NCBI RefSeq assembly: GCF_020532625.1 | Contig: NZ_JAJAUY010000020.1 | Coordinates: 1-64,000 of the forward strand | Source of the DNA: Streptomyces antimicrobicus | Lineage (GTDB): Bacteria > Actinomycetota > Actinomycetes > Streptomycetales > Streptomycetaceae | Reading direction: 5' to 3' | Length of the DNA: 64,000 bases | Shown here: one piece after another, positions 1-10,325 of the stretch | Numbering within the stretch: the first letter of the stretch is position 1 | How the letters are laid out: the number at the start of each line of letters is the position of its first letter | Position numbers and translations under genes: made by a program | The notes under the pieces: model-generated | Databases searched by the model: none | What the model was told of the DNA's origin: nothing | The model's input: only the letters and a program-made list of their open reading frames with translations

Positions 1-360
1 GGGGGCCCCGCGTTCTCGCGCGTGCCGGTGCTGGAGCACGAGATCGTCGACCACGTCTACAGCTACGGCATCGCCGCCGCCGAGACCGTGCCCGTCGCCC
101 TGGCCCTGGCCACCGCCGCCCGGGGCGACGTCGCCGGTGCCGTCCCGGCCGCCGCCTGCCTGTCGCGGGTCGCGGACTCCGCCCCCGCGCTGGCCGGGGC
201 GCTCACCGGCGCGCTCGGTGGCGGGGCGGCGATCCCCGCGGCCTGGCGCGAGGCCTGCCGCACCCTCTCCGGCTGCGCCCTGCCCCGCCTCGCCGGCACC
301 GACCTCGTCGAACTCGCCGGGCTGCTCGCTCGCTCGGAACTGACCTCACCCAAGGGATGA
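1..360 (+). CDS. ADP-ribosylglycohydrolase family protein, C-terminal part (cut by window edge)
   Basis: The reading frame is open from base 1 to a TGA at 358-360, so the start lies outside the window and only about 119 C-terminal residues are visible. The segment aligns by eye with the end of the next gene: SRVADSAPALAGALTGAL here against GRDCDSIATMAGALAGAL there, followed by a shared IPAAW/VPATW. This is the all-helical ADP-ribosylglycohydrolase (ARH/DraG) fold, which cleaves N- or O-ribosyl bonds using two metal ions. The first aspartate of the usual D-x-D-S metal site appears as valine, so this copy may be catalytically altered. It is the first of three paralogues in one operon, with only 7 bases before the next start. 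Confidence 0.75.
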   Translation, partial: GGPAFSRVPVLEHEIVDHVYSYGIAAAETVPVALALATAARGDVAGAVPAAACLSRVADSAPALAGALTGALGGGAAIPAAWREACRTLSGCALPRLAGTDLVELAGLLARSELTSPKG

Positions 361-367
361 TTCGGAC

Positions 368-1513
368 ATGACGCTCACTCTGGAGGACCGCGCGGCCGGC
401 TGCCTCGTCGGTGCCGCCGTCGGCGACGCGCTCGGCGGACCGGTGGAGGGCTGGTCCCCCGACCAGATCGTGGAACGGCACGGCGGCCGCGTGCACGGCA
501 TCGTCGGCCCGTGGCACGAGGACTGGCGCACGGCCCGCCCCATCGCGCCGTACCACAAGGGCGACGGGCACGTCACCGACGACACGTTGATGACCCACGC
601 CCTGGTCCGCGTCTACGAACGGGTCCGCGACCACCTCGACGCCTACGCCGTCGCCGAGCACCTCGTCCCCGACCTCATGACGACCCCCCGGTGGATCCCG
701 GAGCTGGAGGCGGAGGCACTGCCGCTCCAACGGATCTTCCTCGCCGAGAAGTGGCTGGTCGCCCGGCTGCACTACGGGCACGTGGACCCGCGGGAGGCCG
801 GCACCGGAAACATCGTCAACTGCGGCGCGGCGATGTACATGGCCCCGGTCGGCGTCGTCAACGCCGGCAATCCGGCCGGAGCCTACGCCGAGGCCCTCGA
901 CATCGCCGGCGCCCACCAGTCGTCGTACGGCCGCGAGGCCGCGGGGGTGTTCGCGGCTGCCGTGGCGGCGGCCTGCGCGCCGGACGCCACGGCGGCGTCC
1001 GTGGTGGACACCGCCCTGTCGCTGGCCAAGGACGGCACCCGCGCGGCGATCGAGGCGGTCGCGGAGGCGGCGGCGCGGTACCGGGACGTGGAGTCGGCGC
1101 TGGGGCCGCTGCGGGCGGCCGTCGCACCGTACGACACGGTGGGGCCGGACTACCGGAACCCGTCGCTCGGCGCGCGCCGCCCCTCCCGGCTGCACGCCGT
1201 CGAGGAACTTCCGGTGGCGCTCGGGATGTTGCTCGTGGCGGACGGCCGGTACGAGGGGGCGGTGCTGGGAGCGGTGAACTACGGACGGGACTGCGACTCG
1301 ATCGCGACGATGGCGGGGGCGCTGGCCGGGGCGCTGGGCGGCGCCGACGCCGTGCCCGCCACCTGGGCGAAGCAGGTCGCCGAGGCGAGCCGGCTGGACC
1401 TGCACGCGCCGGCGGCGGCACTGGCCGCCGTCGCGCGCGAGGTCTTCGCCCTCGACCGCACCCGCCACGCCGCCCACGCGGCGGCCTTCGCGGCCCTGGC
1501 GGACCCCCGATGA
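368..1513 (+). CDS. ADP-ribosylglycohydrolase family protein
   Basis: A 381-residue protein of the ARH/DraG family, whose members remove ADP-ribose or ribosyl groups with a dinuclear metal centre. The N-terminal glycine-rich signature (GAAVGDALGGPVEGW, residues about 14-28), the metal-binding TDDTLM segment near residue 73 and the C-terminal GRDCDSIATMAG segment near residue 310 are all present, so this copy looks active. The ATG at 368 immediately precedes the family's N-terminal motif. The stop overlaps the next start by four bases (ATGA). Neighbours are two paralogues and a ribokinase, suggesting that the released product is ribose or a ribosyl compound for phosphorylation. The true substrate cannot be read from sequence. 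Confidence 0.88.
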   Translation: MTLTLEDRAAGCLVGAAVGDALGGPVEGWSPDQIVERHGGRVHGIVGPWHEDWRTARPIAPYHKGDGHVTDDTLMTHALVRVYERVRDHLDAYAVAEHLVPDLMTTPRWIPELEAEALPLQRIFLAEKWLVARLHYGHVDPREAGTGNIVNCGAAMYMAPVGVVNAGNPAGAYAEALDIAGAHQSSYGREAAGVFAAAVAAACAPDATAASVVDTALSLAKDGTRAAIEAVAEAAARYRDVESALGPLRAAVAPYDTVGPDYRNPSLGARRPSRLHAVEELPVALGMLLVADGRYEGAVLGAVNYGRDCDSIATMAGALAGALGGADAVPATWAKQVAEASRLDLHAPAAALAAVAREVFALDRTRHAAHAAAFAALADPR

Positions 1514-2928
1514 CCACCGGCACCGCGCCCGTGCGGATGACCTGGGTCCAGCCCGAGGACCTGCTCGGGCACGAGGTCCGGCAGGCCCGCGAGGACGGGC
1601 GGGGCGAGGCGGCGGCGCGGGTGTGGGCACGGTGGGTCGCCGCCGGCGGCGGCCCGGCGCCCGGCAGCGGCGGGGCCTCCCCCGAGCCGGCCCCGCCGGC
1701 GCTGCGCGCCTTGGCCCTGGACCTGCTGGACGAGCTGGACGCCGTCCCGTCACCGCTGCAACCGGACGAGCCGGACCACCTCCCCGACCCGACCGCCCTT
1801 CCCGGCCGCCGCGGTCTGCCGGCCGTCCCCGCCCGCCGGGAGGACGCCGGGGCGTACGAGGAGCTCGTGGCCCGGCTGGAGGCCGCCTGGCTCGGGCGGG
1901 CCGTCGGGTGCGTGCTCGGCAAGCCGGTGGAGAAGGTGGGGCTCGACGGGGTGCGGGCGTTGGCGCGGGCCGCCGGGAACTGGCCGCTCGACGACTGGTT
2001 CACCGCCCGCGGGGTCCCCGCGGAGGTGCTGGCGGCGCATCCGTGGAACCGGCGGTCCGCCGCCACCTCCCTCGCCGAGAACCTCGACGGCACGCCCGAG
2101 GACGACGATCTCGACTACGCCCTGCTGAACCTCCTCCTGCTCCAGCGCCACGGCAAGGACTTCACCACCGCCGACGTCGCCCGGCTCTGGCTGGACGAGC
2201 TGCCCGCCGGGCGGGCGTTCACCGCCGAGCGGATCGCGTACCGCAACCTGCTGCTCGGCCTCGAACCCCCGCTCACCGCCCGCCACCGCAATCCGTTCCG
2301 CGAGTGGATCGGCGCTCTCATCCGCGCCGACGTGCACGGCTGGACCAATCCCGGCGACCCCGCCCGCGCCGCCGCGCAGGCCTGCCGCGACGCCGCCCTC
2401 ACGCACACCGCCGCCGGCGTCCACGCCGCCGCGTTCGCCGCCGCCGCCCTGGCCGCGGCCGCGGGCGGCGACGGCGACGTGCACACCGCGCTGCGGGCCG
2501 GCCTCGCCGTCGTGCCGTCCCGCTCGCGCCTGGCCGAGGCGGTCCGCTCGGGCATCGACGCCGCCGAGCGGGCCCCCGCCGGTCCCGCCGGCTTCGACAC
2601 CGTCGTGGACCGGCTGCACGCCTGTTACGGGCACTACCACTGGGTGCACGCCGTGCCCAACACCGCCCTGCTCGCCGCCGCCCTCACCCACGCCGACGGC
2701 GACTTCACCGGGTCGGTGTGCCGGGCCGTGTCGGGCGGCTGGGACACCGACTCCAACGGCGCCACGGCCGGTTCCCTCGCCGGCCTGCTGGCCGGCTCCC
2801 CGGCCCGGATCCCCGAGCGCTGGACCGCGCCCCTGAAGAACCGGCTGGCGACCACCGTGGCCGGCTTCGACGGCATCGGCTTCGACACCCTCGCCCACCT
2901 CACCGCACAGGAGGCAGCCCGCTCATGA
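1510..2928 (+). CDS. ADP-ribosylglycohydrolase family protein, long N-terminal extension
   Basis: A 472-residue protein starting at the ATG that overlaps the previous stop. The open frame extends far upstream, but coupling by ATGA supports 1510. About 110 N-terminal residues precede the ARH domain. That domain begins at LEAAWLGRAVGCVLGKPVEK and ends with SGGWDTDSNGATAGSLAG, a canonical D-T-D-S metal site. The first metal motif differs from the usual TDDT: it reads EDDDLDY near residue 200, marking a different subfamily from the preceding gene. The next gene, a ribokinase, overlaps by four bases. The likely role is hydrolysis of a ribosylated substrate in the same pathway. ADP-ribose removal from protein is the alternative. 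Confidence 0.87.
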   Translation: MTTGTAPVRMTWVQPEDLLGHEVRQAREDGRGEAAARVWARWVAAGGGPAPGSGGASPEPAPPALRALALDLLDELDAVPSPLQPDEPDHLPDPTALPGRRGLPAVPARREDAGAYEELVARLEAAWLGRAVGCVLGKPVEKVGLDGVRALARAAGNWPLDDWFTARGVPAEVLAAHPWNRRSAATSLAENLDGTPEDDDLDYALLNLLLLQRHGKDFTTADVARLWLDELPAGRAFTAERIAYRNLLLGLEPPLTARHRNPFREWIGALIRADVHGWTNPGDPARAAAQACRDAALTHTAAGVHAAAFAAAALAAAAGGDGDVHTALRAGLAVVPSRSRLAEAVRSGIDAAERAPAGPAGFDTVVDRLHACYGHYHWVHAVPNTALLAAALTHADGDFTGSVCRAVSGGWDTDSNGATAGSLAGLLAGSPARIPERWTAPLKNRLATTVAGFDGIGFDTLAHLTAQEAARS

Positions 2929-3836
2929 CGGCCATCGCCGTGCTCGGCAGTACGAACATGGACCTCGTCGCCTACGTCGCCAAGGCGCCCCGCCTCGGCG
3001 AGACCGTGACCGGCCGGGAGTTCCGCACGGTCCCCGGCGGCAAGGGGGCCAACCAGGCCGTGGCCGCCGCCCGGTGCGGCGGCCGGGTGGCGATGATCGG
3101 GGCGGTCGGCGCCGACGAGTTCGGGCTGCGGCTGCGCTCGTCCCTCGGTGCCGCCGGGGTCGACACGGCCGCCCTGCGCACCGTCGAGGGCGCCAGCGGC
3201 ACCGCCCACATCACCGTGGACGACGAGGGCGGCAACAGCATCGTCGTCGTGCCCGGCGCCAACGCCCGCCTGACCGCCCTGGAGGACGGCGACGAGGCCC
3301 GGATCGCCGCCGCCGACACGCTGCTGCTCCAGCTGGAGGTGCCGCTGGAGGTGGTCGGCGCGGGGGCCCGGGCCGCCCGCGCCCACGGCGTGCGGACGGT
3401 GCTGACCCCGGCGCCCGCCCAGCCGCTGCCGCCCGGGCTGCTGGCCGCCACCGATCTGCTGGTGCCCAACGAGCACGAGGCGGCGGCCCTCACCGGCCTC
3501 ACCGACGTGCGTCAGGCCGCCGAGGCCCTGCTGCAGGAGGTGCCCGCGGTGGCCGTCACGCTCGGCTCCGCCGGTGTGCTGTACGCGGCGCGCGGCCGGG
3601 AGCCGTTCACCGTGCCCGCGCCCCGGGTGCGGGCGGTGGACACCACCGCCGCCGGCGACACGTTCGTGGGCGCGCTCGCCGTCGCCCTCGGCGAGGGCCG
3701 GCCGGAGCGGGAGGCGCTGGGCTGGGCCTGTGCGGCGGCCTCGCTGTCCGTCCAGCGGCCCGGCGCCCAGGCCTCGATGCCCGCCCGGGCCGAGGTCGAC
3801 GCCGCCTGGGCCGCGCGGGTCGGCGACGCGTCATGA
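2925..3836 (+). CDS. Ribokinase (PfkB family carbohydrate kinase)
   Basis: A 303-residue PfkB-family sugar kinase predicted to phosphorylate ribose at O5 with ATP. The N-terminus reads AVLGSTNMDLVAYV. The substrate motif GGKGANQAVAAARCGG (about residues 40-55), the nucleotide-side PNEHEAAALTG and the C-terminal anion-hole and catalytic-base motif TTAAGDTFVGALA (about residue 242) are all intact. Length is normal for ribokinase (about 300). It overlaps the upstream glycohydrolase and the downstream CoA-transferase by four bases each, so all are co-translated. Context makes it the enzyme that captures ribose freed by the glycohydrolases. Another pentose or nucleoside as substrate cannot be excluded. 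Confidence 0.88.
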   Translation: MTAIAVLGSTNMDLVAYVAKAPRLGETVTGREFRTVPGGKGANQAVAAARCGGRVAMIGAVGADEFGLRLRSSLGAAGVDTAALRTVEGASGTAHITVDDEGGNSIVVVPGANARLTALEDGDEARIAAADTLLLQLEVPLEVVGAGARAARAHGVRTVLTPAPAQPLPPGLLAATDLLVPNEHEAAALTGLTDVRQAAEALLQEVPAVAVTLGSAGVLYAARGREPFTVPAPRVRAVDTTAAGDTFVGALAVALGEGRPEREALGWACAAASLSVQRPGAQASMPARAEVDAAWAARVGDAS

Positions 3837-5140
3837 CGAGCTCCGGCGCCGCCTCCCCGACCTCCCCCGCCTCCTCTGCCTCCCCCGCCTCCCCTGTCTC
3901 CTCCGCCTCCCCGGCCTCCGCCCCCTCCTCCGGCACTCCCGACGCCCCGCCGCCGGCCGGCCCGCTCGCCGGGCTGCGGGTGCTGGACCTCGCCACGCTC
4001 TTCGCCGGTCCGCTGGCGGCGACCCTGCTCGGCGACTTCGGCGCCGAGGTGGTCAAGGTCGAGCACCCGGACCGGCCGGACCCCTCCCGGGGCCACGGCC
4101 CCGCCAAGGACGGCGTCGGCCTGTGGTGGAAGCTGCTCGGGCGGAACAAGCGCACGATCACCCTGGACCTGTCCGCGCCCGGCGGCCGGGACGTGCTGCT
4201 GCGGCTGGCCGCGGGGGCGGACGTGGTGATCGAGAACTTCCGCCCGGGCACCCTGGAGCGCTGGGGCCTGGGCTGGGAGGAGCTGAGCGCGGCCAACCCC
4301 CGCCTGGTCCTGGCCCGGGTGACCGGCTTCGGGCAGAGCGGCCCGTACGCCCACCGCCCCGGCTTCGGCACCCTCGCCGAGGCGATGAGCGGCTTCGCCG
4401 CGCTCACCGGCGAGCCGGACGGGCCGCCGACCCTGCCGCCCTTCGGGCTCGCCGACTCCATCGCCGCGCTCACCGCCGCCTACGCCGTGATGACCGCGCT
4501 GGCCGGCCGTGAGCGCACCGGGCACGGCCAGGTCGTGGACCTGGCGATCATCGAGCCGGTGCTCACCGTGCTCGGGCCCCAGCCGCTGTGGTACGACCAG
4601 CTCGGCTACGTCCAGCCGCGCACCGGCAACCGGTCCCCGAACAACGCCCCCCGCAACACCTACCGCTCCGCCGACGACCGCTGGCTGGCCGTCTCCGCCT
4701 CGGCGACCTCGGTGGCCGAGCGGGTGGTGCGGTTGGTGGGGCGGCCGGAGCTGGCGCGGGAGCCGTGGTTCGCGACGGGCTCGGGCCGGGCGGCCCACGC
4801 GCACGTGCTGGACGAGGCGGTCGGCGCGTGGATCGCCCGCCACAAGGCGGAGGAGGTCGTCGGCGCCTTCGAGGAGGCCCAGGCGGCCGTGGCACCGGTC
4901 TACGACGTCCGGGACGTGCTGGCCGACCCGCAGTTCGCCGCGCTGGGCACGGTGACCGAGGTCGACGATCCCGAGCTCGGGCCGCTGCGGATGCAGAACG
5001 TGCTGTTCCGGCTGTCCGGGACCCCCGGCGGGATCCGCTGGGCCGGCCGCCCGCACGGCGCGGACACCGACGCGGTGCTCGCCGAGCTCGGCCTGTCCGA
5101 GGCGGAGGTCACCGCCCTGCGCAAGGACCGGGTCCTGTGA
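3833..5140 (+). CDS. CaiB/BaiF (family III) CoA-transferase
   Basis: A 435-residue family III CoA-transferase, which moves CoA between carboxylic acids through an aspartyl intermediate. The core starts near residue 45 with LAGLRVLDLATLFAGPLAA, followed by DFGAEVVKVEHP, VVIENFRPGTLERWGL and GFGQSGPY. The catalytic aspartate is probably that in FGLADSIAAL (about residue 208). The first 40 residues are an unusual Ser/Pro/Ala-rich low-complexity leader encoded by cct/tcc repeats, absent from the family core. Start chosen at the ATGA overlap with the kinase gene. It is followed by a CitE-like lyase overlapping by four bases. Together they suggest activation of an acid to its CoA thioester and then cleavage. 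Confidence 0.9.
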   Translation: MTSSGAASPTSPASSASPASPVSSASPASAPSSGTPDAPPPAGPLAGLRVLDLATLFAGPLAATLLGDFGAEVVKVEHPDRPDPSRGHGPAKDGVGLWWKLLGRNKRTITLDLSAPGGRDVLLRLAAGADVVIENFRPGTLERWGLGWEELSAANPRLVLARVTGFGQSGPYAHRPGFGTLAEAMSGFAALTGEPDGPPTLPPFGLADSIAALTAAYAVMTALAGRERTGHGQVVDLAIIEPVLTVLGPQPLWYDQLGYVQPRTGNRSPNNAPRNTYRSADDRWLAVSASATSVAERVVRLVGRPELAREPWFATGSGRAAHAHVLDEAVGAWIARHKAEEVVGAFEEAQAAVAPVYDVRDVLADPQFAALGTVTEVDDPELGPLRMQNVLFRLSGTPGGIRWAGRPHGADTDAVLAELGLSEAEVTALRKDRVL

Positions 5141-5958
5141 TCCTGACCTGGCTGTACGCGCCCGGCGACCGGCCCGAGGTGGTCGCCAAGGCGCTCGCCG
5201 CGGGCGCCGACGCGGTGATCGTGGACCTGGAGGACGCGGTGCCGGCCTCCCGCAAGGAGTACGCCCGCGCGGCGACGGCGCAGCTGCTGGCGGACCGGCC
5301 GCCGGTGCCGGTGCACGTGCGGGTGAACGCCCTGGACTCGCCGTGGGCCGGGGCGGACCTGTCCGCGTTGGCCGGGCTGCGCGGGCTCGCGGGCCTGCGG
5401 CTGCCGAAGGTGACCGGGCCGGAGCAGGTCGTCGCGGCGGCCGACCGCTCGGGCGGGGTGGCGCTGTACGCGCTGCTGGAGTCGGCGCTGGGCGTGGAGC
5501 GGGCGTACGACATCGCCCGCGCGCACCCGGCCCTGCGCGGGCTGACGCTGGGCGAGGCGGACCTGCGGGCGGACCTGGGGGTGTCGGCGGACGCGGGCCT
5601 GGACTGGCCGCGCTCGCGGGTGGTGACGGCGGCCCGGGCGGCGGGGCTGGCCCCGCCCGCGCAGTCGGTGTTCCCCGACGTCCGGGACCTGGAGGCGCTG
5701 GCGGCGTCCTGCGCGCACGGGCGGGCGCTGGGGTTCCTGGGTCGGGCCGCGATCCATCCGCGGCAGCTGCCGGTGATCGAGCGGGCCTATCTGCCCGCGC
5801 CCGAGGAGGTGTCCGCCGCCGAGGAGATCGTGACCGCGGCCGAGGCGGTGCCGGGCGCTCAGGCGCTGCCCGACGGGCGTTTCGTCGACCCGGCCGTGGT
5901 CGGCGCCGCCCACCGGACGCTGCTCCTGGCGGAGCGGGCCGGTCAGCTCGCCCGGTAG
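5137..5958 (+). CDS. CitE-like HpcH/HpaI aldolase / CoA ester lyase
   Basis: A 273-residue TIM-barrel enzyme of the CitE / malyl-CoA lyase / citramalyl-CoA lyase group, which performs retro-aldol or Claisen cleavage of CoA esters with Mg2+. Signatures: LYAPGDRPEVVAKAL at the N-terminus, metal ligands in VDLEDAVP (about residue 29) and LLESALGV (about 113), GEADLRADLG, and RAAIHPRQL near the C-terminus. The GTG start overlaps the CoA-transferase stop (GTGA). It is the last gene of the operon, followed by a strong hairpin at 5970-5998. In context it would cleave the CoA ester made by the preceding transferase. The identity of the ester is unknown. Confidence 0.88.
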   Translation: MILTWLYAPGDRPEVVAKALAAGADAVIVDLEDAVPASRKEYARAATAQLLADRPPVPVHVRVNALDSPWAGADLSALAGLRGLAGLRLPKVTGPEQVVAAADRSGGVALYALLESALGVERAYDIARAHPALRGLTLGEADLRADLGVSADAGLDWPRSRVVTAARAAGLAPPAQSVFPDVRDLEALAASCAHGRALGFLGRAAIHPRQLPVIERAYLPAPEEVSAAEEIVTAAEAVPGAQALPDGRFVDPAVVGAAHRTLLLAERAGQLAR

Positions 5959-5969
5959 CGGCACGGCGA

Positions 5970-5998
5970 AGGGGGCGCCGCTGCGCGCGACGCCCCCT
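5970..5998. terminator. Bidirectional terminator hairpin between convergent genes
   Basis: AGGGGGCG (5970-5977) pairs perfectly with CGCCCCCT (5991-5998) around a 13-base loop. It lies between the convergent CitE-like gene and lgt and has no T-run, as is usual for Streptomyces terminators. Confidence 0.75.
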
Positions 5999-10082: not shown

Positions 10083-10325
10083 CTACCGCGCGGCTCCGCG
10101 GCGCCATCGCATGCCGTTGACCTGGCCGGGCTCGGAGCCGATCACGTACCGCACGCGGCGGCCGAGCACGCGCCGGGCCGGGGCCCGGCAGCCGCGCGGC
10201 TTGCAGCCGCGGGCGAGCGGGGCGTGCGGGTCGCGGCCGGCCGCCACCGCCACCGTACGCGCGCCGACCGGCCCCGGGCGCAGGGCGCCCGGGGTGCGGC
10301 GGCGGGTGCGGTGGGAGGCGGACAC
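10083..10325 (-). CDS. trpM: TrpM-like tryptophan biosynthesis modulator
   Basis: A very basic 80-residue protein between trpC and trpB. The C-terminal core, [18 protein letters not shown] followed by [16 protein letters not shown], matches the small TrpM/TrpX protein found at this position in Streptomyces trp operons, where it modulates tryptophan supply. Two cysteines flank PRG. The start is uncertain: GTG at 10325 lies 8 bases after the trpC stop, with GGAG upstream inside the trpC end. The first 35 residues are low-complexity Arg/Pro/Ala and may not all be translated. Biochemical function is not established by sequence. Confidence 0.72.

Follow-up and report, generated by a model that had tools for sequence, protein, structure and literature searches.

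Gene context suggests that a Streptomyces operon uses ADP-ribosylhydrolase-fold enzymes to break down a ribose-containing compound as food

The window analyzed here, positions 1–64,000 of contig C113 of the Streptomyces antimicrobicus genome (64,000 nucleotides, the first base being the contig start), opens with an operon encoding ADP-ribosylhydrolase (ARH) homologs (A2, B and C, with A1 on another contig), a ribokinase (K), a CoA-transferase homolog (T) and a CitE-like lyase (E). The gene content of this operon and its relatives suggests that ARH enzymes are used in Streptomyces to break down a ribose-containing compound as food. We lean, with modest confidence, toward the operon being the core of a riboside-utilization system, in which the ARHs would act as ribosidases and T and E would process the acid part of the substrate. 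Catabolic use of the ARH fold, as proposed in an earlier note on this DNA, is well supported by the gene context in relatives: a LacI-type regulator, a sugar ABC importer and often a ribokinase accompany ARHs in other actinomycetes, Rhizobiales and Deinococcus, and loci with a changed gene order keep T, and usually E, beside the ARHs.

Layout and conservation of the operon

Since the window starts at contig base 1, its first ARH gene is truncated, leaving the C-terminal 119 aa of ARH-A2 at positions 1..360 (open reading frame (ORF) and Pfam). It is followed, also on the + strand, by ARH-B (368..1513; 381 aa with metal motifs TDDT and GRDCDS, identified by ORF, Pfam and motif alignment), ARH-C (1510..2928; 472 aa, with an N-terminal extension, an ARH domain at residues ~115–472 and motifs DDDL and DTDS), K (2925..3836; 303 aa, identified by Pfam PfkB, TIGR02152 and motifs), T (3833..5140; a 435-aa homolog of family III, CaiB-type, CoA-transferases carrying GFGTLAEAMSG, with Gly for the catalytic Asp) and E (5137..5958; a 273-aa CitE/RipC-like CoA-ester lyase with a GTG start, identified by Pfam PF03328 and motifs). 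A gap of 7 bases separates A2 from B, and the four-base overlaps reported earlier from 1510 onward proved exact at 1510, 2925, 3833 and 5137. Pfam PF03747 matched all three window ARHs (33.4, 177.4 and 159 bits; cut-off 26.2), and PfkB, CoA_transf_3 and HpcH_HpaI matched K, T and E, respectively. The ORFs and Pfam matches thus bore out the gene set of the earlier note, with its count of three ARHs raised to four for the operon: A1, which also matches PF03747, is cut by the end of contig C254 (L113:16584-17735).

We compared 81 close loci, consisting of the window and 80 records that were the best 80 of at least 575 ARH-C relatives, all from Streptomyces but one from Kitasatospora. Genes were called with a purpose-written gene finder, so that a gene missing from a single locus may reflect a calling error or a contig end; in the window itself the finder misplaced the start of T. 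ARH-C was present in all 81 loci, B, T and E in 80 each, two tandem A-type genes in 68 and the kinase in 44. Four-base overlaps were found at the C/K junction in 44 of 44 loci, at K/T in 39 of 44 and at T/E in 78 of 80; where no kinase lay between them, C and T overlapped by four bases in 33 of 36 loci. Of 79 B/C junctions, 39 had a spacing of −13 and 30 one of −4. The next call upstream of the first A-type ARH was VIT1-like in 70 loci, a contig edge in 5 and another gene in 4, and no such ARH was called in two loci. This conserved gene content and synteny supports the genes forming one unit.

Relatives carrying an importer and a regulator

The earlier note expected regulator and permease genes upstream of the operon, and this expectation held in relatives, as a LacI gene and sugar ABC genes, while failing in S. 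antimicrobicus itself. Extension of the sequence 5′ of A1 on contig C254 revealed a divergent VIT1 gene (PF01988), then gltB and gltD (glt names assigned by eye), and no regulator or permease gene; the gap between C254 and C113 lay outside the sequence examined. The binding protein of the S. gossypii operon has no close homolog in the S. antimicrobicus genome (best match 26% identity). A regulator and permease immediately upstream were thus ruled out by VIT1 and gltB at that place and by the lack of a close binding-protein homolog. In S. gossypii, the genes for LacI, ABC components, A1, A2, B, C, K, T and E lie in one run, and this LacI protein, the only one so tested, scored highest against RbsR models, below their cut-offs.

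At an E-value threshold of 1e-50 or better, ARH-B was detected in 62 of 394 genomes of the class, 29 inside the genus and 33 outside, and 20 loci from five families were hand-picked from the latter. Each of the 20 has genes for LacI, two permeases and a binding protein ahead of the ARHs; the loci also contain C (19), A1 and A2 (17), ribokinase (15), T (18) and E (17). Orthologue-level LacI matches (1e-70) occurred in 12 of 150 genomes of the family, none of the 12 belonging to the genus. T was kept through two rearrangements of gene order and E through one: in L251 (genome G438) T and E stand at the other end, first in order, both still with the ARHs, and in L252 (genome G603, 1.3 Mb) B precedes A1, A2 and T, with C and the kinase not found. 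L250, from a 1.8-Mb genome, is ordered as usual but has no A1, A2 or kinase. In addition, nine of the 20 loci encode a 622–709-aa protein directly before T (e.g. L243:5369-7336). Three of these proteins were scanned with Pfam and showed a C-terminal FGE-sulfatase domain only, and when a profile built from all nine was searched against PDB sequences, this part alone gave confident matches; the N-terminal part had a TIM-barrel glycosidase look by eye, with no database match in support.

Putative riboside-utilization operons with ARHs were seen in Actinomycetota, Alphaproteobacteria and Deinococcota. The Nonomuraea gerenzanensis locus contains LacI, ABC genes, four ARHs and ribokinase. ARH-B matched 21 records, and the four of these that were read, Rhizobiales plasmids with an ARH-B homolog of ~44% identity, all contain LacI, ABC genes, ARH and then UgpC. 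These plasmid operons have LacI, sugar ABC genes and the ARH-B homolog in common with the actinomycete ones and differ from them in the lack of T and E, in a second ARH of ~700 aa (three of four) and in the rarity of ribokinase (one of four). In Deinococcus aetherius and Mycolicibacterium arabiense, ARH-C relatives lie with genes for ABC components and ribokinase, further actinobacterial ones lie with ABC or PfkB genes, and a Rhizobium relative (a weak match, 28.8% over 55%) lies with a BMP-type ABC transporter. At L111:8073-11179, an ARH-C relative overlaps by 4 bases a gene of the DUF2961 family, which includes furanosidases of GH172 and would fit a furanoside-cleaving role.

Enzyme motifs, phylogeny and flanking genes

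We take the TDD and DxD[TS] motifs of ARHs to be their dinuclear metal-binding residues. In alignment rows that include the reference row, both motifs were present in 89 of 89 A1 sequences (two with SDDT); B had TDDT in 97 of 102 rows (five gapped) and DxDS in 102 of 102; and C had DDD, in which the first Thr is replaced by Asp, and DTDS in 102 of 102. In A2, none of the 96 rows shown (of 98) had an Asp at the position of the second metal motif's first ligand. In the ARH tree, which did not include the window's A2 fragment, A2 sequences were sister to A1 sequences (95/89), and A2 is probably a diverged, non-catalytic partner of A1; an A1–A2 pair is plausible because A2, the sister of A1, has lost the metal motif.

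ARH-C grouped with the ABC- and kinase-linked ARHs (100/100), apart from the four other ARHs of the genome, in this tree, which contained no biochemically known ADP-ribosylhydrolase. A search of PDB sequences with ARH-C gave no match, and its fold was therefore modeled. The model (pLDDT 81, pTM 0.85) showed an ARH fold from residue ~115, with Z scores of 25–29 against MJ1187, ARH3 (28.5), DraG (26.7) and ARH1. Apart from the ligand missing in A2, the ARHs share with DraG and ARH3 the metal motifs and, by the ARH-C model, the fold. They differ in that ARH-C has DDDL for TDDT and a different loop, EWIGALIR, and in their ribokinase and transporter context. In three other Streptomyces loci (L101, L102 and L103) a second ARH-C paralog of 46–49% identity adjoins genes that by eye are NUDIX-like and glycerate-kinase-like, with a Sir2-like gene (by eye) also nearby in L101 and L102; another ARH gene of the S. 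antimicrobicus genome (L205) overlaps a gene that is NUDIX-like by eye by 4 bases.

K scored above the TIGR02152 ribokinase cut-off (317.8 versus 299.65) and keeps the GGKGAN and (A/G)AGD motifs, which we take to be functional in ribokinases. T and E exceeded no NCBIfam cut-off. E scored above the PF03328 gathering score and has the conserved lyase motifs intact, features common to RipC, CitE and citramalyl-CoA lyase; its best NCBIfam model was RipC, at 141.7 bits far under the cut-off of 375, and the CitE model was likewise below its cut-off (127.9 versus 443.4). T matched PF02515 over its full length (418 bits), as do the family III (Frc/CaiB) CoA-transferases, and differs from them by the Gly in place of Asp, the catalytic nucleophile of this family in the passages available from PMC9813914. 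The Gly was found in 98 of 98 ARH-linked proteins (an alignment of 99 rows, in which the window's T is counted twice) and in 27 of 29 further T homologs, the two that keep Asp being distant paralogs, and alignments to solved family III members agreed on Gly at this position. With T lacking the Asp nucleophile, activation of the acid as a CoA ester is doubtful as the earlier note wrote it. The catabolic gene context stood; in detail, the proposed pathway of ribosyl cleavage, ribose phosphorylation, CoA activation and retro-Claisen cleavage is plausible.

Homologs of T with 52–67% identity also occur without ARHs nearby. Their neighbors are hydantoinase-like amidohydrolase, cyclase, MmgE/PrpD, IclR and FAD genes, or an SLC13 permease with PrpF, and E homologs accompany some of them, not all. 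These neighborhoods suggest a dicarboxylic or similar acid. The T tree placed 26 of 28 ARH-linked sequences in one clade (99/97), whose join to a hydantoinase-linked clade was weak (85/40); the E tree united 25 of 27 ARH-linked sequences (88/99). Because the T clade closest to the ARH-linked one comes from hydantoinase/PrpD operons, such a pathway was considered as the direct function; it was rejected, since none of its genes was recognized in the operons of the ARH loci. More broadly, the loci L179-L204 reveal an Asp-less CaiB-type subfamily that is found in both bacteria and haloarchaea and whose frequent neighbors are hydantoinase-like, cyclase and MmgE/PrpD genes or other CoA-ester lyases.

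Downstream, the operon faces convergent lgt-like, DsbA-like, trpA-like and trpB-like genes (names by eye). The hairpin at 5970..5998 (+ strand), between the operon and the lgt-like gene, is a weak terminator candidate (z −1.23) and was not adopted as such. A small ORF on the − strand (10083-10325) adjoins trpB and might correspond to the trpX/trpM-type gene reported from S. coelicolor (PMC5036795).

Proposed pathway and competing readings

In the complete form found in relatives, a LacI-type repressor would control a sugar ABC importer, and the imported ribose-containing compound would be cut inside the cell by A1 (probably paired with A2), B and C, metal-dependent hydrolases of the ARH fold that would work as ribosidases rather than as ADP-ribosyl-protein hydrolases. 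Ribokinase would trap the released ribose as ribose 5-phosphate. In actinomycetes, where the operon usually includes T and E, these two would process the acid part as a CoA ester of a β-hydroxy, citramalyl- or malyl-like kind, T forming or rearranging the ester and E splitting it in a retro-Claisen reaction. In most close Streptomyces, S. antimicrobicus included, importer and regulator are off the locus and ribokinase is optional, so the enzymes probably act on a compound made internally or entering by another transporter. The catalyzed reactions, the class of substrate, the order of steps and the role of T are what we infer from this setting; release of the acid by an ARH we likewise infer, because both ARH operons without T and E and T genes without ARHs exist.

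Several observations, besides the Gly of T and the lost ligand of A2, weigh against the riboside-utilization reading. No importer or regulator lies upstream of A1 in the S. antimicrobicus genome, LacI was recognized in only one of the 81 close loci, that of S. gossypii, and no kinase was called in 37 of them (one cut by a contig end). ARH-B is not universal: 11 genus genomes are among those listed without it, and it was found in only 8 of 296 genomes of the phylum, all in the genus (E at most 1e-40). All four Rhizobiales operons read lack T and E, the stretches fetched from G585, G632 and Nonomuraea contain neither, and E was not found in G603. Finally, two ARH-linked T proteins from small genomes (L250 and L252) fell outside the main T clade, and in the E tree the L250 and L251 proteins, on long branches, did not group with the other ARH-linked ones.

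The alternative that survives best, a real possibility though one we would not bet on, is that after loss of the importer the Streptomyces operon turned to salvaging or repairing, inside the cell, a ribosylated metabolite that the cell itself makes. It would account for the fixed place of the operon between gltB/VIT1 and lgt-trp, where 70 of 81 loci have the VIT1-like gene as immediate upstream neighbor, and for the retention of hydrolase, T and E genes in a genome without a close binding-protein homolog. However, another transporter could serve, and S. gossypii has the full set even though none of the 12 family genomes with an orthologue-level LacI belongs to the genus. This alternative is in part compatible with riboside utilization. 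It is unlikely that the transcript joins two modules sharing regulation and not substrate, with the ARHs and ribokinase acting on a riboside and T and E on a separate acid. T, with or without E, does lack ARH neighbors elsewhere, lying with the hydantoinase-like, cyclase, MmgE/PrpD, FAD and dicarboxylate-type permease genes, and ARH operons without T and E exist; yet T and E accompany 18 and 17 of the 20 non-genus loci and persist through two rearrangements and one, respectively, the ARH-linked T proteins form one clade but for two of 28, and the T/E overlap is kept in all but two of 80 close loci. Least probable, and rather improbable in our view, is that the ARHs reverse ADP-ribosylation of protein or nucleic acid, with ribose and an unrelated acid being recycled by the remaining genes: the fold and metal motifs fit, as does the classing of SCO2028-SCO2031 in the available literature passages as uncharacterized DraG/ARH homologs, but inspection by eye, Pfam and annotation, with no dedicated search, recognized no ADP-ribosyltransferase in the operons read, which carry sugar importers, LacI and often ribokinase instead, and SCO2028 and SCO2030 had no detectable activity on the one substrate reported there, U-alpha-ADP-ribose.

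SCO2028-SCO2031 are four consecutive ARH genes of S. coelicolor, an organism cited in these passages for its large number of ARH proteins, and are presumably the same locus, judging from numbering and synteny. The passages discuss these proteins only as ADP-ribosylhydrolases, report that others purified SCO2028 and SCO2030, and do not mention the ribokinase, T, E or the importer-linked relatives. The yegTUV genes of E. coli, described in the passages on them as nucleoside-symporter-like, ARH-like and sugar-kinase-like with unsolved function, resemble the window operon in combining a transporter, an ARH-like and a sugar-kinase-like gene, and differ in having an MFS-type transporter, a GntR-family regulator, one ARH and no T or E. 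Among the literature matches listed, which covered few subscription papers, we found no description of an ARH-ribokinase-ABC or ARH-T-E operon (sources, as passages: PMC5087735, PMC13036486, PMC9411070, PMC5036795, PMC11833690, PMC10819704 and PMC9813914). We consider it possible, at a little under an even chance, that this ARH branch comprises true ribosidases of a widespread riboside-utilization operon, which in actinomycetes feeds a CoA route of two enzymes, the CaiB-like one doing without the Asp nucleophile through an undescribed chemistry.

ARH proteins are usually annotated and counted as erasers of ADP-ribosylation. If the four S. coelicolor ARHs do serve a nutrient pathway, this picture would change, and the negative results with ADP-ribosyl substrates would gain a simple explanation. 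The LacI-type regulator and the binding protein are testable genes for finding the substrate, and the Asp-less CoA-transferase subfamily poses a separate question of enzymology.

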